A model generated the notes under the pieces. That model saw only the letters and a program-made list of their open reading frames with translations. It searched no databases and had not been told where the DNA came from. 29,776 nt of DNA from IMG/VR virus record IMGVR_UViG_3300045110_000337, positions 1 to 29,776 of that record; one strand, written 5' to 3'. Positions within the stretch are counted from its first letter, which is position 1; every line of letters starts with the position of its first letter. The translations under genes and the position numbers were made by a program. Positions 3,763 to 29,206 of this stretch are shown here, one piece after another. The DNA is from a virus.

Positions 3763-4022
3763 GCCGTCACCTCGATGGCGCCCGTGCGGCGGTCGAAGTG
3801 GAGGACGTCGGCGCCCTCGCCCTTGCCCTTGCCGTTGAACACCGACCAGAGGCCGTAGTAGGCGGAGCGCTCGTCGGTCGTCCAACCGGCGCACGGGTTG
3901 GCGGCGAGCGTGGCCTCGAACAGTGCGACCTGCTCGGGCGTGGCGACGGCGCGGAACTCGGCGTCGAGCACGGCGCCGCCGGGGAACTGAGCCTTGCGGC
4001 CCTTGAACGTGGTGTTGGTCAT
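3759..4022 (-). CDS. Hypothetical protein, 87 aa, first gene after promoter A
   Basis: Starts ATGACCAACACC (MTNTTFKGRKAQFPGG) only 7 bases after the -10 hexamer of promoter copy A, so it is probably translated from a leaderless mRNA; there is no Shine-Dalgarno. It heads the operon that continues to base 1. The protein has no Cys pair and no recognised domain; a Gly/Lys segment (NGKGKGEGADV) lies near the C-terminus. Confidence 0.65.
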   Translation of the reverse strand: MTNTTFKGRKAQFPGGAVLDAEFRAVATPEQVALFEATLAANPCAGWTTDERSAYYGLWSVFNGKGKGEGADVLHFDRRTGAIEVTA

Positions 4023-4071
4023 GGGACCGATGATAGCAGCGGGTGAGGGGAGATCCACAACATCGTTGCAG
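4023..4071 (-). promoter_or_regulatory. Promoter copy A (leaderless-type element)
   Basis: Minus strand: TATCAT (4035-4030) lies 7 bases before the ATG at 4022 and is preceded by CTGC. A -35-like TTGTGG lies 19 bases upstream. The CTGCAACGATGTTG box (4071-4058) sits about one helical turn further upstream than in the other copies. The element overlaps the right arm of a 9-bp inverted repeat. Confidence 0.6.
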
Positions 4072-4079
4072 ATCTCCCC
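4047..4079 (-). terminator. Hairpin after gene 4091-4789, overlapping promoter A
   Basis: GGGGAGATC (4047-4055) and GATCTCCCC (4071-4079) form a perfect 9-bp inverted repeat around a 15-base loop. It follows the stop codon at 4091 by 11 bases on the minus strand but has no U-tract, so it could equally be an operator for promoter A. Confidence 0.45.
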
Positions 4080-4090
4080 GTTCGAGCTGG

Positions 4091-4789
4091 TCACGCCTGC
4101 ACCCGAGCTGCCCGGCGAGCGGCGAGCGCAGCGTCCTTCGCAGCCTTCGCAGCCGCACGCTTGACAGCCTTCGCACGAGACTCGGCGAGCGCCTTCCAGA
4201 ACGCCTCCTCGCCCTCGTTGAGGAGCACGGCGGTGACGGCCGGCGACAGGCGCTGCTCGTCGGTCCACGCAACCGGCGCGTCGGGCCAGCAGACCGAGCA
4301 CAGGGACGGGCCGAGAGCCTCCACGAGCGCCTCGTGCGAGCGACCCGAGCAGCTCGGCAACAGAGCGAACGTCGTGTCGCTGCGGCCCTTGTTGCACGTG
4401 TGGCAGCGGGTCGAGCTGTGCACGAGGCCGGCCGAGCTGGTCACGAGGAAGTAGCGCTGCCAGCCGGTGTAGTTGGCCTCGTGGAGGTTGAGTGCCTGAG
4501 CGGCGGCGAGGTGGGCGTCGATCGCCTCGGTGAGCTTCTCCCGGTAGTTGACGAACGTGCGGGTCTCCCACGGCTGGGCGGCAGCCTCGGCGGCGTCGAA
4601 GTCAGCGATGACCTCGGTCCACGTGCGCACGTCGTTGCGGCTGTAGTTGCGGGTGCGGGGGGCGCTGATCGAGCGCCACCAGCCACGCACGGTGGCGAGG
4701 CGAGCCTCGGCGGTGTACAGGGCGCCCCACAGGGCGAGCATCTGCTCGTCGTGGGCCTGCTCGGGGGTGGTGATGATGTTGGTGGTCAC
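4091..4789 (-). CDS. Zinc-finger phage protein with basic C-terminal tail
   Basis: A 232-residue protein starting GTGACCACCAAC (MTTNIITTPEQAHDEQ), 6 bases after the -10 of promoter copy B. An N-terminal helical region is followed by a zinc-binding centre: RCHTCNKGRSDT then, about 40 residues on, LCSVCWPD. The last about 40 residues are an Ala/Lys/Arg-rich helix (ESRAKAVKRAAAKAAK), typical of nonspecific nucleic acid binding. I have seen this layout in actinophage proteins of unknown role. It is transcribed alone, since a hairpin and promoter A follow. Confidence 0.7.
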   Translation of the reverse strand: MTTNIITTPEQAHDEQMLALWGALYTAEARLATVRGWWRSISAPRTRNYSRNDVRTWTEVIADFDAAEAAAQPWETRTFVNYREKLTEAIDAHLAAAQALNLHEANYTGWQRYFLVTSSAGLVHSSTRCHTCNKGRSDTTFALLPSCSGRSHEALVEALGPSLCSVCWPDAPVAWTDEQRLSPAVTAVLLNEGEEAFWKALAESRAKAVKRAAAKAAKDAALAARRAARVQA

Positions 4790-4826
4790 GCCGCCATGAT
4801 AGCAGCGATCATTCAACGTCGTGCAG
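4790..4826 (-). promoter_or_regulatory. Promoter copy B (leaderless-type element)
   Basis: Minus strand: CTGCACGACGTTGAA (4826-4812), then CTGC and TATCAT (4801-4796), then 6 bases to the GTG at 4789. CTGCAC and TATCAT are 19 bp apart. The box overlaps the stop codon of the MerR-type gene. Confidence 0.65.
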
Positions 4827-5238
4827 CATCTACCAGGATTCGTTCGTGCATCTCGCTGTCGAGCTGATCGAGGATCCCGCCGAGCGGGAGCACGTTGAGC
4901 ATCGAGCGCTGGGAGCGCACGAGGTCGACCAGCTCGTCCTGCGAGCACAGGCGCACGTCGCGGCCCGACATCACGAGCGTGAGGTTGCGCACGTCGAGAT
5001 CCTGATGACGCTGCAGCACGAGCATCGCCGTGCGCACTGCCGACAGTGCGATGTTCGCATCGAGCATCGCCTTGACGATGCACAGGTCGATCAGGTCGCG
5101 GTGGCTGTAGCTCCGACGTGAGCCGCTGCCGTGCGCCTCTGCTGCGCTCGGACTGATCAGTTCGGTGCGGTCCCAATAGTCGAGCTGGCGATAGCTGATG
5201 CCAGCAATGCGGGCAGCCTCCGTAGCCGTGTAGCTCAT
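4813..5238 (-). CDS. MerR-type HTH transcriptional regulator
   Basis: A 141-residue protein. Residues 1-45 match the MerR DNA-binding domain: a first helix pair TATEAARIAGISYRQLDYWD, then RRSYSHRDLIDL, the typical wing and second helix pair. The rest (to AARR) is a helical region with a Cys at LCSQDEL, fitting a short dimerisation or sensing domain. In MerR-family activators the protein binds between -35 and -10 elements spaced 19-20 bp and twists the DNA. The promoters in this cluster have that spacing and the gene itself has a related upstream element (copy H), so it is a candidate regulator of the regulon. That link is inference. Confidence 0.75.
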   Translation of the reverse strand: MSYTATEAARIAGISYRQLDYWDRTELISPSAAEAHGSGSRRSYSHRDLIDLCIVKAMLDANIALSAVRTAMLVLQRHQDLDVRNLTLVMSGRDVRLCSQDELVDLVRSQRSMLNVLPLGGILDQLDSEMHERILVDAARR

Positions 5239-7309: not shown

Positions 7310-7527
7310 CACTTCACCGTCTTCGTGAAGTTGACGATCGTGCCGATCCATGACTCGGGCGTGCCGTGCTGAGCGACGGGGGCGGTCGAGTCGACCTTGC
7401 GCGCCTGCAGCCACGACTCGGCGGCGTAGCGGTGCTTGAAGACGACGACGACGTGGCCGTTGCGGTACCCGAGCCATTCCTGGCCCGTCTTCACGGTGTA
7501 GGTCTTGATGATGATGAGGTTGGTCAC
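7309..7527 (-). CDS. Hypothetical small protein, 72 aa
   Basis: Starts GTGACCAACCTC (MTNLIIIKTYTVKTGQEWLG), 7 bases after the -10 of promoter copy C, with no Shine-Dalgarno. An ATG inside the -10 hexamer at 7539 would give four more residues but would place the start within the promoter itself. The protein is beta-rich and basic with no recognised domain. Its TGA overlaps the next ATG. Confidence 0.65.
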   Translation of the reverse strand: MTNLIIIKTYTVKTGQEWLGYRNGHVVVVFKHRYAAESWLQARKVDSTAPVAQHGTPESWIGTIVNFTKTVK

Positions 7528-7565
7528 GGTGTGGAGCATAGCAGCAGATGTTGAACGTCGTGCAA
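7528..7565 (-). promoter_or_regulatory. Promoter copy C (leaderless-type element)
   Basis: Minus strand: TTGCACGACGTTCAA (7565-7551), CTGC, TATGCT (7540-7535), then 7 bases to the GTG at 7527. TTGCAC and TATGCT are 19 bp apart. In this copy the box lies in a perfect inverted repeat, TGTTG-N9-CAACA. Confidence 0.65.
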
Positions 7566-7569
7566 CAAC

Positions 7570-8085
7570 TCAGAGAGCGATCGGGCCGGATGTCGAGCTG
7601 GTGCTCGGGGCGAACAACGGCCGACCGACCTGAGCGTCGAACAGCTCGGCCGGCCACACGGGCGTGGTGCGTGCGAGCGGCAGGATCTCGACCGACAGCT
7701 TCGAGCTGGTGAAGCCGGCCACGAGCGCCTCGGCCCACTCGTTGCCGTAGGCGAGGCGCACGAGCCACACGTAGCGGGCGCGCCACTCGGGGCCGTGGCC
7801 ATCGGCGGTGACGAGGTGAGCCATCTCGTGTGGCACTGCGAAGCGCCACGAGCCGGCGACCTTGTAGGAGATCCGGCGGAACGCCTGGGCGTAGTCGCAC
7901 GGGCCGGTGTTGTAGGTGATCTCGATCGACCGGGTGCCGTAGATGAGCTGCCACTCGGGCGTGGCCTCCAACTCCCTGGTCTGTGTGACCAGGGAGCCGA
8001 ACCCAGCCTGCTCGCCGAGCAGCGTGTGGAAGAACGCATGCTGCTCGGCGCCATAGCTGGCGCTCTTGGAGTAGTCCCGGCTCAT
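7570..8085 (-). CDS. SprT-like zinc metalloprotease
   Basis: A 171-residue protein with the zincin motif PHEMAHLV (His86, Glu87, His90) and HGPEW (His97) seven residues later, the third zinc ligand. This spacing is that of SprT-like proteins, in which Glu is the catalytic base. Length and layout fit a phage version of a small metallopeptidase-like protein often found beside DUF2786 genes, as here. It starts at the ATG overlapping the stop of the DUF2786 gene. The substrate is unknown, and activity is inferred only from the intact ligands. Confidence 0.75.
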   Translation of the reverse strand: MSRDYSKSASYGAEQHAFFHTLLGEQAGFGSLVTQTRELEATPEWQLIYGTRSIEITYNTGPCDYAQAFRRISYKVAGSWRFAVPHEMAHLVTADGHGPEWRARYVWLVRLAYGNEWAEALVAGFTSSKLSVEILPLARTTPVWPAELFDAQVGRPLFAPSTSSTSGPIAL

Positions 8086-8849
8086 CGCGACAGCGCCCTC
8101 GTGCCCGAGCCGACGCGGTTGCGGCCACCGCTGAGATCGGCGTTGCGAGCGGCGATGGCGCCGTTGGCCCGACCGTTCGAGCTGCGCCCGGTGGAGTGTC
8201 CGACGGTGCGCAGCCGCTTCGTCTTCATGAACGACTCGACCTGACGCCTGCGCTCGACGAGCACCAGCTCGGCTCCGACCACACGCTGCTCGGCAGCCTC
8301 GGTGGTGCTGCCGGCGGCGGCGTGCACCACGGCCTCATCACGTGCGAGCCTGGTGCTCTCGGTGAGGCGCTTGCCGATCTCCTGGGTGTAGCCGGCGACG
8401 AACGAGCGCCGGTAGTCCTTCGTGACTGCGATCGAGCGCGACTTGAACTGTGCCGCCTGCGCCACGGCGTCGGAGAGCAGGAAGTTGGCGAGGCGCTTGA
8501 CCCGCTCGAAGTCCGAGCGGAACCCGCTGATGCGCACGTTGTACGTCATCCCCGAGCTGCGCCACCAGACGCGGCAGTCGTACGCACGAGCGACCTCGGC
8601 GATCAGGCTGGCGTGCAGCAGGCCGTAGGCGCCTGTGAGCTGTCCGTACTCGTGGTCGGTCAGCTCGTCGGTCTCGTCGAGATCGAGCATCGCCGACTCG
8701 ATGCGGTGCTGAGCCATCAGCGCGAGAGCCTTCGCCTCGGCGACAGCCTTCTCGGCCGGCGGTGTGTTCGGGTGGTTGGCCCGGATCCAGATCTTGCGGA
8801 TCTTCGAGAGCAGGATGTCCAGCTCGAAGTTGGTGGTGGTGTTGGTCAT
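8082..8849 (-). CDS. DUF2786-domain protein
   Basis: A 255-residue protein starting ATGACCAACACC (MTNTTTNFELDILLSKIRKI), 7 bases after the -10 of promoter copy D. Residues about 8-50 (ILLSKIRKIW, then KAVAEAKALALMAQHRIE) match the helical repeat of DUF2786: a KIRKL helix followed by A.AKAL.LM..H.I. The middle has more helical sequence and a C-terminal basic tail rich in Arg, Gly and Asn. DUF2786 proteins are of unknown function and often sit by a SprT-like gene, as here. The pair is probably one functional unit. Confidence 0.75.
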   Translation of the reverse strand: MTNTTTNFELDILLSKIRKIWIRANHPNTPPAEKAVAEAKALALMAQHRIESAMLDLDETDELTDHEYGQLTGAYGLLHASLIAEVARAYDCRVWWRSSGMTYNVRISGFRSDFERVKRLANFLLSDAVAQAAQFKSRSIAVTKDYRRSFVAGYTQEIGKRLTESTRLARDEAVVHAAAGSTTEAAEQRVVGAELVLVERRRQVESFMKTKRLRTVGHSTGRSSNGRANGAIAARNADLSGGRNRVGSGTRALSR

Positions 8850-8890
8850 GCGCCCGAGTATAGCAGGTCGTGAAACGTCGTTGAGCAACC
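8850..8890 (-). promoter_or_regulatory. Promoter copy D (leaderless-type element)
   Basis: Minus strand: TTGCTC, then ACGACGTTTCA, then CTGC, TATACT (8862-8857) and 7 bases to the ATG at 8849. The -35-like TTGCTC is 20 bp from TATACT, and the GTT box lies two bases closer than in copies B, C, E and F. Confidence 0.6.
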
Positions 8891-8985
8891 AGTCACGACT
8901 CTTCGTTGAATATCTCTCGATTCGTGTGCACTGCGCCGGCACGAGCTGGCCCTTGTGGCGCCTGGGCCAACGCCCACAACGAGAG

Positions 8986-11039: not shown

Positions 11040-11254
11040 GATGCTGTTCCTTTGGTAGTGGTGGTGGTCACGGTGCCGAGTGTAGCAGCGTCATTCAACG
11101 ACGTTGCAGGACTCAGCATTCCGGCGAGGAGCCGCAGCTTGTCTGCGGCTCGCTCGTCAGAGGTTGCGCCTTGCCGGAGCTGGTAGGCAGTCCGTTCCAG
11201 CTCGGCGGCGATCGGGTTGATGAACGCTGCGCGCTCGGCGTAGTTGCCGTTCAC
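11036..11254 (-). CDS. Hypothetical 72-aa protein whose 3' end holds promoter E
   Basis: Begins at a GTG in a GTGA overlap with the SNF2 stop (VNGNYAERAAFINP) and runs to a TGA that overlaps the next ATG. Promoter copy E lies inside its last quarter. A second, in-frame GTG at 11071, 7 bases after that promoter's -10, would give an 11-residue peptide (MTTTTTKGTAS) ending at the same stop. So the 3' end doubles as a promoter plus a possible leaderless leader peptide for the downstream zinc protein. The body of the protein is helical and unrecognised. Confidence 0.55.
   Translation of the reverse strand: MNGNYAERAAFINPIAAELERTAYQLRQGATSDERAADKLRLLAGMLSPATSLNDAATLGTVTTTTTKGTAS
11072..11109 (-). 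promoter_or_regulatory. Promoter copy E (leaderless-type element)
   Basis: Minus strand: CTGCAACGTCGTTGAA (11109-11094), CTGC, TACACT (11084-11079), then 7 bases to a GTGACCACC at 11071. CTGCAA and TACACT are 19 bp apart. It lies within the coding sequence of the 72-residue frame. Confidence 0.6.
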
Positions 11255-12840
11255 GACTGCGCCCAATCGAGCAGTGCGTTGGTCACGCTGTCGTCGTCGA
11301 TCAGCGTGCCGGCCTGACCGTCGAGCAGCTCGCCGACGACGATGGCCTTCTTGTTGAGGATGCCCACGAGCGCCTCGTCGATCGTGCTCTCACCGTTCGC
11401 AGCCACGAGAGCGTGCGAGATGACCAGCTCGGTCTGACCGATGCGATCGGCCCGTGCCTCGCACTGTGTGTAGTCGGTGGGCGTCCACGGGAACTCGGCG
11501 AACACGACCTGATTGGCGGCGGTGAGCGTGTGACCCGTGCCGCCGGCCACGATGTTGAGCACGATGACCTTGTCGTCGCCGGCCTGGAAGCGAGCCTTCG
11601 CGATCTCGACATCGGCGACCTTGTCTCCGCCCATGATCGTGCGAGCGTTGAAGTGCTCGGCGATCGCCTTGACGACGTCGGTGTGCCAGGCGAAGACGAT
11701 GACCTGCTCGCCCTGGTCGACGAGGTTCTGCACGAACGAGATGACGGCGGGGATCTTCGCCAGGCCGGCGAGGCGGCGGAGCGCCCCGAGCTGCACCAGC
11801 GCCTCGGCCCGCAGGCTGCGCTCGGTCTTGTCCTCGGCGATGCGCTCGGCGTCCTCGATCGAGAACCCGTCGTCGATGGCGACCTCCTCGTGGTGGTCGA
11901 GCAGCCACGAGCGCAGGCGGTCCCGAGCTTCCTTGTACTCGATGGCGTAGCGGCCGGTCAGCTCGCAGGCGGTGGTCTGGCGAGCGACACCCTTCGGCGC
12001 CCGGTCACCCATCTGCTCGCGGACCTGATCGAACGTCAGGCGGCAGTAGCACGAGTCGAGCAGGCGGGCGTGCAGGCCGGTGAGGTTGCGAGCCTCGCGC
12101 TCCCAGCGGCCGACCTTCGGGTAGTAGTTGGCGAGGAAGTCGAGCACGCCGCCGAACAGGCCGTCGAGCACGCCCAGGATCTCTAGCTGCGGGATGGCCT
12201 CGTCGGGCGTGTTCTTGATGAACGTGCCCGAGAGCAGCAGCACGAGGGCGTCGGTGGGGAGCCACTTCGCGATCTGCTTGACAGCCTTCGTGCGCTGAGC
12301 GTCCTTCGACTTGAAGTTCTGCGACTCGTCGATCACGAGGGCGGTGAAGCCGGCGGCGACGAGCTTGCGCTCCCAATGCTTGACGACGCTGTGACCGATG
12401 ATCACGACGTCGGTGTCGGGCACCTCGCCGGGCGTCTGTCCGCTCACGACGGCGGTGGAGATCTGAGGGGCGAACTGCTTGAACTCGCGGACCCAATTGA
12501 GCGTGAGGCTCGGGGGAGCGATGACCAGTGCCTTGATGGCGCCCTTGTCACGCAGCTCGATGGCCAGGGCGGTGATCGCCTGGATCGTCTTGCCGAGACC
12601 CATGCCGTGTCCGATGACGCAGCGGCGGGCGAGCGTGGCGTAGCACACGCCGGCCCGCTGGTAGGGGAACAGCTCCACGCCGGGGGCGAGCAGGCCGGTC
12701 GTATCCAGCTCGGCATCGATCGCCTTCGCGAGGGCCGTGAGGCCGGTGATGACCTCGTGGGTCTCACCCTGCAGGTGGGGGAGCACGAGGTCGGCGAACT
12801 CGCCGAGCGCCGTGCGGTAGTCGGTGGTGGTGGTGGTCAC
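11251..12840 (-). CDS. SNF2-family DEAD/DEAH-like helicase
   Basis: A 529-residue protein starting GTGACCACCACC (MTTTTTDYRT), 7 bases after the -10 of promoter copy F. An ATG inside that -10 hexamer at 12852 is less likely. The motifs are in order: Walker A GHGMGLGKT (77-85), Ia VIAPPSLTLNW, motif II DESQ (171-174), motif III LLLSGT (about 201-206), and the second RecA-like lobe with VFAWHTDV, NIVAGGTGHTLT and motif VI QCEARADRIGQ (459-469). This is the SMARCAL1/SNF2 type of DNA translocase, in which ATP hydrolysis drives movement on duplex DNA. Motif II reads DESQ rather than the common DEAH or DEGH. No extra nuclease or chromodomain is visible. Confidence 0.9.
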   Translation of the reverse strand: MTTTTTDYRTALGEFADLVLPHLQGETHEVITGLTALAKAIDAELDTTGLLAPGVELFPYQRAGVCYATLARRCVIGHGMGLGKTIQAITALAIELRDKGAIKALVIAPPSLTLNWVREFKQFAPQISTAVVSGQTPGEVPDTDVVIIGHSVVKHWERKLVAAGFTALVIDESQNFKSKDAQRTKAVKQIAKWLPTDALVLLLSGTFIKNTPDEAIPQLEILGVLDGLFGGVLDFLANYYPKVGRWEREARNLTGLHARLLDSCYCRLTFDQVREQMGDRAPKGVARQTTACELTGRYAIEYKEARDRLRSWLLDHHEEVAIDDGFSIEDAERIAEDKTERSLRAEALVQLGALRRLAGLAKIPAVISFVQNLVDQGEQVIVFAWHTDVVKAIAEHFNARTIMGGDKVADVEIAKARFQAGDDKVIVLNIVAGGTGHTLTAANQVVFAEFPWTPTDYTQCEARADRIGQTELVISHALVAANGESTIDEALVGILNKKAIVVGELLDGQAGTLIDDDSVTNALLDWAQS

Positions 12841-12878
12841 AGGCGTGAGCATAGCAGCAGTCTTTCAACGTCGTGCAA
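12841..12878 (-). promoter_or_regulatory. Promoter copy F (leaderless-type element)
   Basis: Minus strand: TTGCACGACGTTGAA (12878-12864), CTGC, TATGCT (12853-12848), then 7 bases to the GTG at 12840. TTGCAC and TATGCT are 19 bp apart. This is the closest to the consensus. Confidence 0.7.
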
Positions 12879-12882
12879 CATC

Positions 12883-13089
12883 TCAGCGGACATTCTTCGC
12901 ACGCCAGGCGGCGTCGGCAGCCGCACGAGCTGCACGACGCTCAACCTCGCGACGGTGCTCGGCAACACGCCGGTCGGCGATCGCCCGGTAGCGCTCGGCG
13001 CCGCGGTAGTTGCCGGCGCGCTCCGCCTTCGCGGCGAGCCGGTAGTACGCCGACGCCTGGCGCAGTGCGAGGGGGCGTTGCCCGCTCAT
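12883..13089 (-). CDS. Small basic helical protein, 68 aa
   Basis: MSGQRPLALRQASAYYRLAA starts at the ATG in an ATGA overlap. The sequence is mostly one or two long helices rich in Arg, Ala and Glu (EHRREVERRAARAAADAAW). It is likely a nucleic acid binding or helical-bundle protein. No family recognised. Confidence 0.55.
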   Translation of the reverse strand: MSGQRPLALRQASAYYRLAAKAERAGNYRGAERYRAIADRRVAEHRREVERRAARAAADAAWRAKNVR

Positions 13090-13892: not shown

Positions 13893-14101
13893 GCCGGCAC
13901 CTCGACTCCGGCAACGGCGCACCACACCCGCACGAGGTGCAGCAGGCGCTCGGCGGAGATCCCGAACGGCCCGGACTCGTACTCGACGGCGTCGAGCAGA
14001 TCCTGGCCACCCTCGTCGCAGTCGCTGAGCACTGCGAGGATGGCGTCTTCGTGGCGGTCGATCGCTCGCCCGCCGATGTTGTCGTTGGTGGTGGTGGTCA
14101 C
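13889..14101 (-). CDS. Hypothetical protein, 70 aa, behind promoter G
   Basis: Starts GTGACCACCACC (MTTTTNDNIGGRAIDRHEDA), 7 bases after the -10 of promoter copy G, with no Shine-Dalgarno. The rest is helical and acidic (LAVLSDCDEGGQDLLDAVEY). It opens the minus-strand unit that continues through the DUF6011-like protein. No family recognised. Confidence 0.65.
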   Translation of the reverse strand: MTTTTNDNIGGRAIDRHEDAILAVLSDCDEGGQDLLDAVEYESGPFGISAERLLHLVRVWCAVAGVEVPA

Positions 14102-14141
14102 GCCGGCAATGATAGCAGGGTTGTTCAACGACGTGTCGCAA
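14102..14141 (-). promoter_or_regulatory. Promoter copy G (leaderless-type element)
   Basis: Minus strand: ACACGTCGTTGAA, CTGC, TATCAT (14114-14109), then 7 bases to the GTG at 14101. The GTTGAA box is one base closer to the -10 than in copies B, C, E and F. The divergent plus-strand gene starts 80 bases further on. Confidence 0.6.
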
Positions 14142-14221
14142 CTCGTGCTGATTTCTCGGGAGATCTTCGGCCGATGTGTCATGTCTCCGAGCGTAGGTAG
14201 AGGGTGTGACAGAGTAGGGGA

Positions 14222-14440
14222 GTGGCAGCTACCGACCACATCGCCGTGCGCCAGTTCCGCATGCCCGGCGTGTCGAGCAGCTCGCGCCGGCACGGCACCT
14301 ACTCCCTGTCGATCTACGGCAAGCCGTCGGTGTCACGGTTCGGTGTGCGCGGGCAGCAGGGCATCGCCACCAACCCGGGCGTGCCTGACTTCCGCTCCTC
14401 GCACGTCGCGGCCGAGCGCCGGCCGCGCCGTCGGGGCTAG
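14222..14440 (+). CDS. Plus-strand hypothetical protein, 72 aa
   Basis: GTG start (MAATDHIAVRQFRMPG), read away from the minus-strand operon beginning at 14101. Third codon positions are nearly all G or C, which supports a real gene, although the only SD-like purines (AGAGGG) are about 14 bases upstream and poorly spaced. The protein is basic, with a Ser/Arg-rich middle (GVSSSSRRHGTYSLSIYG) and an Arg-rich end. No family recognised. A hairpin follows its stop directly. Confidence 0.55.
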   Translation: MAATDHIAVRQFRMPGVSSSSRRHGTYSLSIYGKPSVSRFGVRGQQGIATNPGVPDFRSSHVAAERRPRRRG

Positions 14441-14455
14441 CTCCGCCGAGCGGAG
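14441..14455 (+). terminator. Short hairpin after the plus-strand gene
   Basis: CTCCGC, a CGA loop, GCGGAG: a 6-bp GC stem starting at the base after the stop codon at 14440. There is no U-tract, so terminator activity is uncertain. Confidence 0.4.
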
Positions 14456-14470
14456 TGCCGGGTGCTCCAC

Positions 14471-14523
14471 CCGCCGGAGGGGGGTGTGGCACGCCGGAGC
14501 AGGTCGCTCCTCGCCCCCGGCGG
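14471..14523. other. Structured GC-rich nested hairpin
   Basis: CCGCCGG (14471-14477) pairs with CCGGCGG (14517-14523), with a bulge and three more G-C pairs, around an inner hairpin GGAGC (14496-14500) / GCTCC (14506-14510). It lies in the 14441-14731 stretch, which lacks a convincing gene but holds several hairpins and one copy of the bipartite repeat. Confidence 0.45.
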
Positions 14524-14545
14524 AGAGGGGTTGGGCGTCGCCGCT

Positions 14546-14589
14546 CCGACGTACCCAAGGGGGGTCACTCCAAATCGGTGATTTGAAAC
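14546..14589. repeat. Bipartite repeat, copy 1 (G-run with TCGGTGATTTGAAAC)
   Basis: CCGACGTACCC (14546-14556), then GGGGGG (14559-14564), 10 bases, TCGGTGATTTGAAAC (14575-14589). Within it CAAATC-GGT-GATTTG is a perfect 6-bp dyad. The same modules recur at 15523-15565 with identical G-run spacing. Regulatory, replication or packaging roles are possible; none is shown. Confidence 0.7.
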
Positions 14590-14621
14590 GGCCCCTCTGG
14601 CACGAGCGTATCCCAGGCTCT

Positions 14622-14693
14622 ATGCTCACGAACGACGCTGCCATCGAATCATGGGGTGCTCAACATTGTCTCCGAGAGCGGGGCCGTCCGTAA
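14622..14693 (+). CDS. Possible 23-aa leader peptide ORF
   Basis: ATG at 14622, MLTNDAAIESWGAQHC and onward, stop TAA at 14691-14693. The stop lies exactly in the GTAA loop of the hairpin 14678-14705. There is no convincing Shine-Dalgarno and length alone is not significant, so this is listed only because of that coincidence. Confidence 0.2.
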   Translation: MLTNDAAIESWGAQHCLRERGRP

Positions 14694-14705
14694 GGGCGGT
14701 CCTGC
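14678..14705 (+). other. 12-bp hairpin with GUAA tetraloop
   Basis: GCGGGGCCGTCC (14678-14689), loop GTAA (14690-14693), GGGCGGTCCTGC (14694-14705): 12 consecutive pairs including three G-U pairs, capped by a GNRA-type tetraloop. G-U pairs favour folding of the plus-strand RNA. There is no U-tract after it, so it is more like a structured RNA or attenuator element than a classical terminator. Confidence 0.55.
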
Positions 14706-14731
14706 TTCGCGTCTGAGCTACGTTTCGATCG

Positions 14732-14950
14732 ATGCGACTGGTGCGTTGTTGCGACAGCTACGACGGTCGGTGGTGTCGTATCTGCGGCGCATGCCAGTGT
14801 CGGTTCCGCGCCGGCCGTAAGCACGGCTGGTCACCGAAAGGCGCCAACGACGAGTGTCCAATGCATGCCGGCGCGCACGGTCGTCTCGTGAGACTGCGCA
14901 GAGTTGAGCGCCCCCCGTCGTTGGAGGTGCCGGGGGGCGCTCGAACCTAA
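14732..14950 (+). CDS. Plus-strand cysteine-rich hypothetical protein, 72 aa
   Basis: MRLVRCCDSYDGRWCRICGA, then CQCRF and ECPMHAG: six or seven Cys in the first 50 residues, fitting one or two zinc sites. No clear Shine-Dalgarno. Its last 14 codons overlap the bidirectional hairpin 14906-14942, and its stop overlaps the convergent gene by four bases. Third-position G/C bias is weaker than in neighbouring genes. It may be real, but the overlap with a terminator is a warning. Confidence 0.4.
   Translation: MRLVRCCDSYDGRWCRICGACQCRFRAGRKHGWSPKGANDECPMHAGAHGRLVRLRRVERPPSLEVPGGART
14906..14942. terminator. Bidirectional hairpin terminator
   Basis: GAGCGCCCCCC (14906-14916) and GGGGGGCGCTC (14932-14942) form an 11-bp perfect stem with a 15-base loop, five bases after the stop of the minus-strand gene ending at 14947. 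It should end the minus-strand transcript through 15468 and could also stop plus-strand reading. No strong U-tract. Confidence 0.7.
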
Positions 14951-15468
14951 CCGACGATCGAAGAGCGGTTCTTGCCCGATGCCTCGGCGGCGAGAACTCG
15001 CTGTTCATCCTCGGGGTGCGCATCGAGGTAGTCCTGCACCTCGGAAACGGTGTGGTCGCCGGGATCGAACTCGCCCTCTTCGGCAGCTTCCCCGTCGTCC
15101 TCTTCCCCGGTCTTGATGCCGAGATTCTGAGCGGCGATCTCCTTGGTGGCGAACTGCTCGGCCGTCGGCGGCTCGGGCCATGCCGTGCCCGACTCGGCTG
15201 CTGCGCTCATGGCGTTGCCGGTGGCGTTGTCGAGCGCCTCGTTGTCCTCGGGTCCGGGGCCGGGTTCGACATCGACGTCGGTGCCCGGCGTCGGGACGGT
15301 GGGATCGTTCGCCGCCGGCCCCATCACGGCCCGGTTGTAGGCAGCGGTGGCGTGGACCTCGTCGAGCGACTCGGCCTCGGACGTGTCGACCGGGTCGGGA
15401 GCGTTCTCGTAGTCCTGCTCACGCAGCTCGGGGCTGGTCGTGTGGGCGGGTGCCTCGGTATCGGACAT
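14947..15468 (-). CDS. Acidic hypothetical protein, 173 aa
   Basis: ATG start with AAGGAG upstream at good spacing, in a 120-base gap after the previous gene. A low-complexity acidic region rich in Asp, Glu, Pro and Thr (TPGTDVDVEPGPGPEDNEAL) fills the first 130 residues. The end (TVSEVQDYLDAHPEDEQ, then VLAAEASGKNRSSI) is a small helical domain I have seen at the C-terminus of other phage proteins, sometimes structural or scaffold-like. Here it is the last gene of the unit. Confidence 0.65.
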   Translation of the reverse strand: MSDTEAPAHTTSPELREQDYENAPDPVDTSEAESLDEVHATAAYNRAVMGPAANDPTVPTPGTDVDVEPGPGPEDNEALDNATGNAMSAAAESGTAWPEPPTAEQFATKEIAAQNLGIKTGEEDDGEAAEEGEFDPGDHTVSEVQDYLDAHPEDEQRVLAAEASGKNRSSIVG

Positions 15469-15522
15469 GTCGTCTCCTTGTGCTCAGGCTCTGTCCCGAG
15501 CGTAGTTGGCCCCTATTCCGCA

Positions 15523-15565
15523 GGGGGGGTGTCGCCGTTTCGGTGATTTGAAACCGACGTACCCC
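15523..15565. repeat. Bipartite repeat, copy 2 (G-run with TCGGTGATTTGAAAC)
   Basis: GGGGGGG (15523-15529), 10 bases, TCGGTGATTTGAAAC (15540-15554), directly followed by CCGACGTACCC (15554-15564). The G-run to 15-mer spacing equals that in copy 1. Here the dyad is GTTTC-N8-GAAAC. It lies between a stop at 15589 and a start at 15468. The minus-strand TACGCT near 15501 may be a -10 for the downstream gene. Confidence 0.7.
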
Positions 15566-15588
15566 GTTGACGCACCAGTCAGCCGGCG

Positions 15589-16887
15589 TTACTTGCTATC
15601 GACCGTGTCGGCTTCCCACGCCTCGGCAAGCACGGTGTCGCTCGGGACGGGATGCGGGAGCGCCTGAGCACCCTTGCTCATCGCTCCGCCGAAGATCTGC
15701 GAGAGGATGCCGGCGCCGCCGGCCGACTCGGTGGTCGTGATCGACAGCGTGGCGCGCTGCTCGTTCTGTCGAGCTTGCGACTCGGCCTGTGAGAAGAACC
15801 GGTCCATCTCCCGACCGAGGTGCGGATCCAGCTCGCCACCTGCAGCTTCCTCGGCGTGGCGCATGAACAGGATCCGCTGCCACTGGATCTCGTGCACGAG
15901 CTGTTGGGCGTCGCGCATCTGTCGGTTGGTGCGGATCTCGACCGGGATGGCGTACGCACAGGCGGCGTCGGTCTCGTAGCCGGGGCACGAGTGGCTGATG
16001 AAGCAGCCGTTGCACTGTCGCAGAGCGTTGATCGAGGTGCGCGCCACGTTGCCGTGCTCGGTCTCCTCGAAGTGCCCGAGCACGGGAAGCAGCACACGCT
16101 CACGTGGGCGCGCTTGCGGCCTCGCGATAGCAACACCGTTGGTCGATTCCGTCGGTGTTGCGTCAGAGTCGGGAAGAGGAGAGATAGCAAGGATCCGTTC
16201 GTACTGCTGCCACGAGAGCAGTGAGATGCGCACCATCTCGTCGACATCGCCGGCCTTCAACAGCTCGGCGTCGCCACCCATGTTGTTGATCTGGCCGACG
16301 TAGTTGTCGACGCTGGCGCTACGTGCGGTGCGTGGGAACTTGCGCACCTTCTTGCCGTCCCACACCTGGAACTCACGATGCTTCTGCGTGGCGATCCAAC
16401 CTGCGACGATGGCGTCGGTGAGACAGGGGAGCGCGAGCGCATCGACCTTGCTGGTGGCGCAGTAGAGATGGACGCTCGGGTTGCGGCCGATGAAGGCGTT
16501 GAGCGGGATCTGGTTGCGCTTCTCCAACAGGTCAGCCTCATCGATGCAGACGGCGTTGTGCTCGACCATCGCTTCGAGTGCGGCATCGACGTCGACACCA
16601 TCCCACAGCGGGATCGCCGTGCCCGGGAAGCGACCGCTGTACTCCATGCCTATTGCGAGCGACGTCTCATCGCCATGCGCCCGCATGATCTCCGCCGCCT
16701 TGTCGACGTCCACGGTCTGTGAGGCGTAGAACAGCGTCACGAACGGCAGTAGGTCGTCCTGAGCTACCGAGCTGTGGCCACCGCTGTTGAGCACCGGCCC
16801 CAGGTTGAACCCGACTCTGCGTACTTCGAGCTTGGCGAACCGCTTGCGGTGAGCACCGACCTCGGCACCGGAGAAGTACAGCCTCAC
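15589..16887 (-). CDS. Unrecognised 432-aa phage protein with C-terminal Cys centre
   Basis: Starts at a GTG in a GTGA overlap (VRLYFSGAEVGAHRKRFAKL). The first about 250 residues alternate strands and helices (VTLFYASQTVDVD, HNAVCIDEADLL, SVHLYCATSKVD) in a way suggesting a TIM-barrel-like or other alpha/beta fold, with KHREFQVWDGKKVRKFP as a distinctive block. The C-terminal region has CNGCFISHSC, then CAYAIPVEIRTNRQMRD and WQRILFMRHAEEAAGG, a block I recognise from uncharacterised actinophage proteins. The four Cys suggest zinc. I cannot assign a function; a link to tRNA/DNA-guanine transglycosylase-like enzymes crossed my mind but I have no supporting motif. Confidence 0.65.
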   Translation of the reverse strand: MRLYFSGAEVGAHRKRFAKLEVRRVGFNLGPVLNSGGHSSVAQDDLLPFVTLFYASQTVDVDKAAEIMRAHGDETSLAIGMEYSGRFPGTAIPLWDGVDVDAALEAMVEHNAVCIDEADLLEKRNQIPLNAFIGRNPSVHLYCATSKVDALALPCLTDAIVAGWIATQKHREFQVWDGKKVRKFPRTARSASVDNYVGQINNMGGDAELLKAGDVDEMVRISLLSWQQYERILAISPLPDSDATPTESTNGVAIARPQARPRERVLLPVLGHFEETEHGNVARTSINALRQCNGCFISHSCPGYETDAACAYAIPVEIRTNRQMRDAQQLVHEIQWQRILFMRHAEEAAGGELDPHLGREMDRFFSQAESQARQNEQRATLSITTTESAGGAGILSQIFGGAMSKGAQALPHPVPSDTVLAEAWEADTVDSK

Positions 16888-17060
16888 TCGGCCGGCGCTC
16901 CCTCGGACCACAGGCGCACGATCGGGATGCAGGGGTCTTGTCCGTCCTCGAACGCCTGCTTCTCCTCGGCGGTCATCGTGGCGCCATCGTGGGTGTCACA
17001 GACCGGCGGAGCGCAGAACCCCGACGAGACACCGATCTCGATCCACTCAGACAGCTCCAT
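16884..17060 (-). CDS. Small Cys-containing protein, 58 aa (CDTHDG motif)
   Basis: ATG start with an SD-like AAGGTGGT upstream, overlapping the preceding gene by 14 bases. MELSEWIEIGVSSGFCAPPV is followed by CDTHDGATMTAEEK and a C-terminal DPCIPIVRLW. The arrangement C..C.THDG, acidic stretch, DPC.P resembles short actinophage proteins of unknown function. It might bind a metal through three Cys and one His. Confidence 0.6.
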   Translation of the reverse strand: MELSEWIEIGVSSGFCAPPVCDTHDGATMTAEEKQAFEDGQDPCIPIVRLWSEGAPAE

Positions 17061-28744: not shown

Positions 28745-29206
28745 TCACAACGACTTCCAGACCGACCACACGAGGCGTGTGAACTCGGACCAGTTGCCGG
28801 TGCGACTGTCGGCAGGATCATAGACCTTCGCAACCTTGGCGGCGGCGATGGCTGCCTCGATCTGTTCACGGCTGTACAGGCGCCGGCCCTTGGCGACGCG
28901 GCCGGCGAGGTTGGCCGTCGGCGGTGCCTCCTCCCGGTAGGAGGCCGGGGGGAACCAACGCTTCTGTTCCCACGACCTGATCGTCACCGGGTTGCGGTTG
29001 AGAGCCTCGGCGAGCGCACCGATGGTGAAGAACTCGAACGTGCCGGGGCGGTCCTTGCGTCCGCGCATCACCGGGTTGCGATCCCACGGGCGCCGCTCCA
29101 CCGCAGGGGGGGTCTTCGGTTCGCGCCACTTTGAAACCTGCTCCATCGACGTGAGGGCGGCGCCGCCGAAGACCTTGTCGAGCACGGGGTTGCTCGGCTT
29201 GGTCAT
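28745..29206 (-). CDS. MerR/excisionase-like HTH protein
   Basis: A 153-residue protein whose centre reads TIGALAEALNRNPVTIRSW, then RWFPPASYR and GRRLYSREQIEAA: a MerR-type helix-turn-helix with a wing. The N-terminal 60 residues are basic and Pro-rich, and a C-terminal helix ends in WKSL. It could regulate the replication genes or act as a directionality factor. The ATG overlaps the preceding TGA. A third, looser copy of the G-run plus TTTGAAAC element (29106-29137) lies inside its coding sequence. Confidence 0.75.
   Translation of the reverse strand: MTKPSNPVLDKVFGGAALTSMEQVSKWREPKTPPAVERRPWDRNPVMRGRKDRPGTFEFFTIGALAEALNRNPVTIRSWEQKRWFPPASYREEAPPTANLAGRVAKGRRLYSREQIEAAIAAAKVAKVYDPADSRTGNWSEFTRLVWSVWKSL

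Follow-up and report, generated by a model that had tools for sequence, protein, structure and literature searches.

Regulators of the MerR family usually bind symmetric sites (dyads) between the −35 and −10 boxes of a promoter, and autoregulatory systems commonly place a site for the regulator inside the regulator's own gene. In Cluster A mycobacteriophages such as L5 and TipsytheTRex, operators and stoperators are asymmetric, share one orientation and occur at promoters and elsewhere, and the Cluster A repressor that reads them is monomeric and carries two DNA-binding domains (PMC9283540). Cluster K mycobacteriophages carry the SAS/ESAS, a conserved repeat near gene starts whose letters vary between subclusters (PMC3203893).

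The Cluster A operators and stoperators are the nearest known kind to the phage element described here, which is likewise asymmetric, in one orientation and present at promoters and elsewhere, and a two-domain repressor is what its bipartite form would want. However, the stoperators are 13 bp long and number more than 20 per genome, whereas the present element spans 28 bp with three sites in 111 kb, has another sequence and has one of its sites within a coding gene. The stoperator consensus, GATAGGTGTCAAG, gave seven matches, all with three mismatches, where 4.5 were expected, and is not enriched. In a test of orientation all three sites lay on the strand of most genes, though site 1 adjoins a plus-strand promoter. 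The three-site element is Cluster A stoperator-like in outline, but not a member of that group. It resembles the Cluster K SAS in being a repeated, conserved element near gene starts with group-specific letters, however the SAS (GGGATAGGAGCCC) occurs in 11–19 copies tied to translation starts, whereas the present element has another sequence and three copies, with sites 1 and 2 placed upstream of promoters. The likeness to MerR-family systems (CueR, CarA, BldC) lies in the candidate regulator, which has a MerR-type helix-turn-helix (HTH); compared with the dyad operators of that family, the element is asymmetric, is located further upstream, beyond the −10 spacer, and shows no dyad common to its copies.

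The phage and its relatives

The window, i.e. the whole stretch of DNA analysed here (29,776 nucleotides), is a 29.8-kb viral contig of 65.5% GC whose minus strand holds nearly all genes, and the phage is a soil phage of actinobacterial type. Upstream of site 2 it encodes a homologue of DpdA-like tRNA-guanine transglycosylases (15589–16911, minus strand), a similarity which suggests that the phage may carry 7-deazaguanine-modified DNA. Relatives were recruited via this protein, giving five contigs with 78–90% protein identity, one of which is a nearly complete genome of 111 kb. In the element region two of the contigs, L075 and L077, represent a single phage; five distinct phages, including the window, were compared. 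Two further contigs, L151 and L152, were paired with L074 and L075, respectively, as single phages, based on a common sample and fitting contig ends. The nearest named phages by protein are the Streptomyces phages GiJojo, LuckySocke, Alone3 and BRock, with genomes of 112–116 kb and ~25–30% identity.

A DNA search of a phage collection gave no match, and no relative was found among the bacterial genomes searched. Among viral contigs the bare 15-mer of the element (see below) had 71 matches, about the chance level, with one from a relative, and a looser site-2 pattern had 44, the full element occurring in known relatives only. Adding the −10 box to the pattern brought up six extra contigs without context, most of them AT-rich, and no new relative was accepted from these. 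In L095, a distant relative whose DpdA-like protein is 36% identical, gene A and a homologue of gene B were detected and the element was not found. An Rfam search returned nothing relevant.

Sequence of the element at sites 1 and 2

The initial annotation described two copies of an element consisting of a G-run and a 15-mer at exact spacing. The 15-mer TCGGTGATTTGAAAC is exact at 14575–14589 and 15540–15554, the G-runs lie at 14559–14564 and 15523–15529, and the T, N4, CC and N3 between them are as described in both copies. With up to three mismatches allowed, these two are the only matches to the 15-mer in the window, where 0.34 would be expected by chance. Read on the minus strand, the element is GTTTCAAATCACCGATTTGGAGTGACCCCCC at site 1 (14589–14559) and GTTTCAAATCACCGAAACGGCGACACCCCCCC at site 2 (15554–15523). 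Its core in the window is TTTCAAAT-N15-ACCCC at both site 1 (14561–14588) and site 2 (15526–15553), each on the minus strand and at the same position in five phages. Across these phages the core reads TTTCNAAT-N15-ACCCC on the minus strand, with identical spacing in 10 of 10 copies, and the ten copies align without gaps as TTTC, N, AAT, 15 variable bases and ACCCC. In the 111-kb relative the 8-mer TTTCNAAT is found at sites 1 and 2 only, and the full pattern has no exact match beyond them, site 3 differing by one mismatch.

An 11-mer, CCGACGTACCC, had been reported to flank both copies, and it is indeed exact at 14546–14556 and 15554–15564. It falls outside the shared element however, as 17 of 100 shuffles gave an equal number of matches and the copy-1 version varies among the relatives (minus-strand variants GGGTGCGTCGG, GGTGCGCCGG and GGCGTGTCGG).

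In one relative, L076, the likeness of sites 1 and 2 extends past the core, which suggests duplication. It is nonetheless extremely improbable that the copies are chance repeats or an old functionless duplication, given that five phages conserve both positions, the core letters being invariant, and that site 3 (below) is under nucleotide-level selection.

Separately, ~40–45 nt directly 3′ of site 1 (14512–14557) are missing in the window and L074 and kept in L075, L076 and L078. In L076 this stretch is similar to the DNA that follows site 2, but has an altered −10 box.

The dyad previously noted in each copy exists locally, but the registers differ and the copies have no common structure. A shared RNA hairpin had been our first idea, as each copy folds, and the alignment ruled against it. 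More broadly, the minus-strand transcript could be read by an RNA-binding protein, an antitermination complex or a small RNA: the three sites are oriented like most transcription, site 3 lies within an mRNA, single copies are able to form stable hairpins and the in-step change of base N described below is also compatible with RNA–RNA pairing. We regard an RNA element as unlikely, however, as RNAalifold on the alignment returned no shared pair, two explicit hairpins scored at most slightly better than alignments with shuffled columns, the dyads are out of register, as noted, and the conserved promoter and leader at site 1 are on the opposite strand.

Predicted promoters and converging transcription units

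Two transcription units converge between sites 1 and 2. The minus-strand unit consists of gene A (14947–15468), which encodes an acidic protein with 62–75% identity in the relatives and would be transcribed from a putative promoter at site 2. The predicted −10 box, TACGCT (15499–15504, minus strand), lies in an invariant AACTACG.TCG; the box sequence AACTACGCTCG is invariant and lies 26 nt after the ACCCC start of site 2 (25 nt in L078, with one base changed). It is followed by a ribosome-binding site, AAGGAG (15474–15479, minus strand), within an invariant CAAGGAG, and then by the start codon.

On the plus strand, a predicted promoter with the −10 box TATGCT (14621–14626) lies 31–32 nt from site 1, and precedes a conserved 16-bp leader hairpin (14673–14709) whose G–U pairs assign it to the plus-strand RNA. 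The conserved gene B (14732–14950, plus strand) encodes a small Cys-rich protein, has substitutions mostly at codon position 3 and converges on gene A. At the meeting point of the two genes is an 11-bp GC hairpin (14906–14942); the terminator thought to be bracketed by the two copies is present as this terminator-like hairpin, but lacks a T-run. The two copies had also been thought to bracket the only plus-strand region; gene B does lie between them, but a second small conserved plus-strand gene (14222–14440), with 57 of 72 residues in common with L074, lies outside. As a side observation, the leader hairpin with its flanking bases is nearly invariant in the five phages (GGTGCTCANCATTGTCTCCGAGAGC), its conservation exceeding that of the element itself, and has no match in Rfam.

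No standard −35/−10 promoter was found in 14100–15900, where the −10 boxes have no standard −35 hexamer, hence both promoters may depend on a factor bound upstream. The orientation of the site is opposite at the two promoters, with the ACCCC end proximal at site 2 and the TTTC end proximal at site 1, an arrangement that a repressor or looping protein fits more easily than a contact activator.

A different set of promoters was observed in front of left-half genes on the minus strand. At least seven have GTTGCACGACGTTGAA upstream and a TGCTAYNCT −10 box that is immediately followed by an (A/G)TGACC start, with positions in the window at 4017–4846, 7522–7585, 8844–8907, 11066–11129, 12835–12898 and 14096–14159. 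The mRNA from these GTTGCACGACGTTGAA promoters is leaderless.

A third site within a MerR-like gene

The count of two copies in the window was incomplete, as a third lies at 29109–29136 (minus strand). This site 3, TTTCAAAG-N15-ACCCC, falls ~70 bp inside the coding region of a gene of MerR HTH type (28745–29206, minus strand; PF13411), and is found in the same place in three further phages. The window (29136, minus strand) and the 111-kb relative (6436) have one-mismatch matches at equivalent positions, both in the coding gene, and the homologues in L152 and L151 have none and two mismatches, respectively. A profile trained on sites 1 and 2 alone, then applied to site 3 in the four phages, gave scores of 16.9, 19.4, 24.5 and 34.1 bits, compared with a maximum of 10.6 bits in ten random Markov genomes of 222 kb (2.2 Mb). 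Real DNA elsewhere reached at most 9.5 bits, leaving aside site 1 read in reverse and site 3 read one base out of register.

The MerR-like reading frame is real, since the window and L151 have 116 of 146 residues in common and codon position 3 is where substitutions are most frequent. As a synonymous control, the site 3 peptide was randomly recoded with the phage's own codon usage, and the probability of reaching the site 3 score was 0.0026 in the window, 0.0008 in L151, <0.0002 in L152 and 0.0002 in the 111-kb relative. These values, obtained within coding DNA, show that site 3 is kept by selection at the DNA level, in addition to selection on the protein. Rare codons are used at the site, namely GTT (6% of valine codons) and AAA (<2% of lysine codons).

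In L074 (6489–6917), L075 (10201–10659) and L076 (10236–10670), a ParB-like gene C adjoins site 1 and precedes gene B. It is missing in the window and in L078, by loss or gain among phages that are alike in other respects. The weak ParB-like matches of gene C and its place beside site 1 raise a reading of the element as a partition, replication or packaging site, e.g., a parS-like site of gene C, but this is highly improbable. The window and L078 keep the sites without gene C, the spacing to the promoters is near-fixed, and ParA (AAA_31), tyrosine integrase and resolvase were not found in the 111-kb relative, a record which may be incomplete. Candidate parS half-sites (GTTTC/GAAAC) were seen in window copy 2 only, with no ParA, and were rejected. 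The origin-iteron, packaging and recombination roles originally proposed are likewise unsupported, with three unclustered sites in 111 kb, one of them in a coding gene, and no integrase or ParA matches.

In-step change of a single base

In the window, the base N between TTTC and AAT reads A at each of the three sites. The phage from sample 3300006237 also has A, that from sample 3300021082 has G and the 111-kb relative has C, with L078 the lone disagreement (C and G). N agreed within a phage in 12 of 13 comparisons (permutation P = 0.0025, rising to 0.014 when the two closest phages are counted as one); for two phages, site 3 comes from another contig of a common sample, where we infer that it belongs to the same phage. 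A base uniform within each phage and variable between phages points to one phage-encoded factor reading all three sites, and would not fit a shared host factor.

The element itself could serve as a promoter recognised by a non-standard sigma factor or polymerase, a reading we consider quite improbable. The offset from TTTC.AAT to ACCCC is 23 nt from start to start in all 14 copies of the three sites, equal to a −35/−10 pair with a 17-nt spacer, and the orientation is consistent. However, a Sigma70_r4 protein was not found in the 111-kb relative, a host sigma factor would leave both the difference at N between phages and the agreement within them unexplained, and a conventional −10 box already lies downstream of site 2. 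To our knowledge, ACCCC resembles no known −10 box.

From the range of roles first suggested, that of an operator is supported by the conservation of the sites at promoters, the near-fixed distance to them, the exact bipartite spacing, the third site and the base changing in step. Further copies and conservation in related phages, on which the initial annotation had let its case depend, were both found.

A candidate regulator and proposed operator set

We consider it on balance probable that the element is an asymmetric, bipartite predicted binding site, three per genome, for one phage regulator, most likely the MerR-like protein. The site within its own gene, a common layout in autoregulation, makes this protein the leading candidate factor, and if a phage protein binds there is perhaps an even chance that it is this one, a guess from location. 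Its match to PF13411 (E = 1.5e-4) is just over the cut-off. The AlphaFold model is modest (mean pLDDT 57.6), and its top PDB matches are the MerR regulators CueR, CarA and CadR, with E values of 0.2 or worse, none of them significant. Residue changes in the protein go along with phylogeny no less than with base N, and the opposite orientation at the two promoters and the asymmetry of the site also count against this reading.

Under the proposed scheme, one phage-encoded, sequence-specific regulator would bind TTTCNAAT-N15-ACCCC (minus strand) at the gene A promoter (site 2), upstream of the plus-strand promoter (site 1) and within the MerR-type gene (site 3). The MerR-like protein would thereby bind its own gene, with feedback by roadblock, and may switch both converging units together. 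From the DNA we infer that a protein binds, that the factor is the MerR-like protein and that binding represses or activates transcription.

More tentatively, these sites may possibly amount to a minimal regulon of three sites, in a phage that has no known lysogeny gene. Its regulator would read a 28-bp asymmetric bipartite site, with one copy encoded by synonymous codons in the gene for the regulator, and base N would change in step at all three sites as the specificity of the regulator drifts. If true, this would provide a candidate protein and a small, complete set of sites whose natural variants have A, G or C at N, in which a joint change in specificity of a phage regulator and its operators would be directly testable. 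It would also be a case of an operator held in coding sequence by synonymous codons, of a kind missed by gene-finding and promoter scans.
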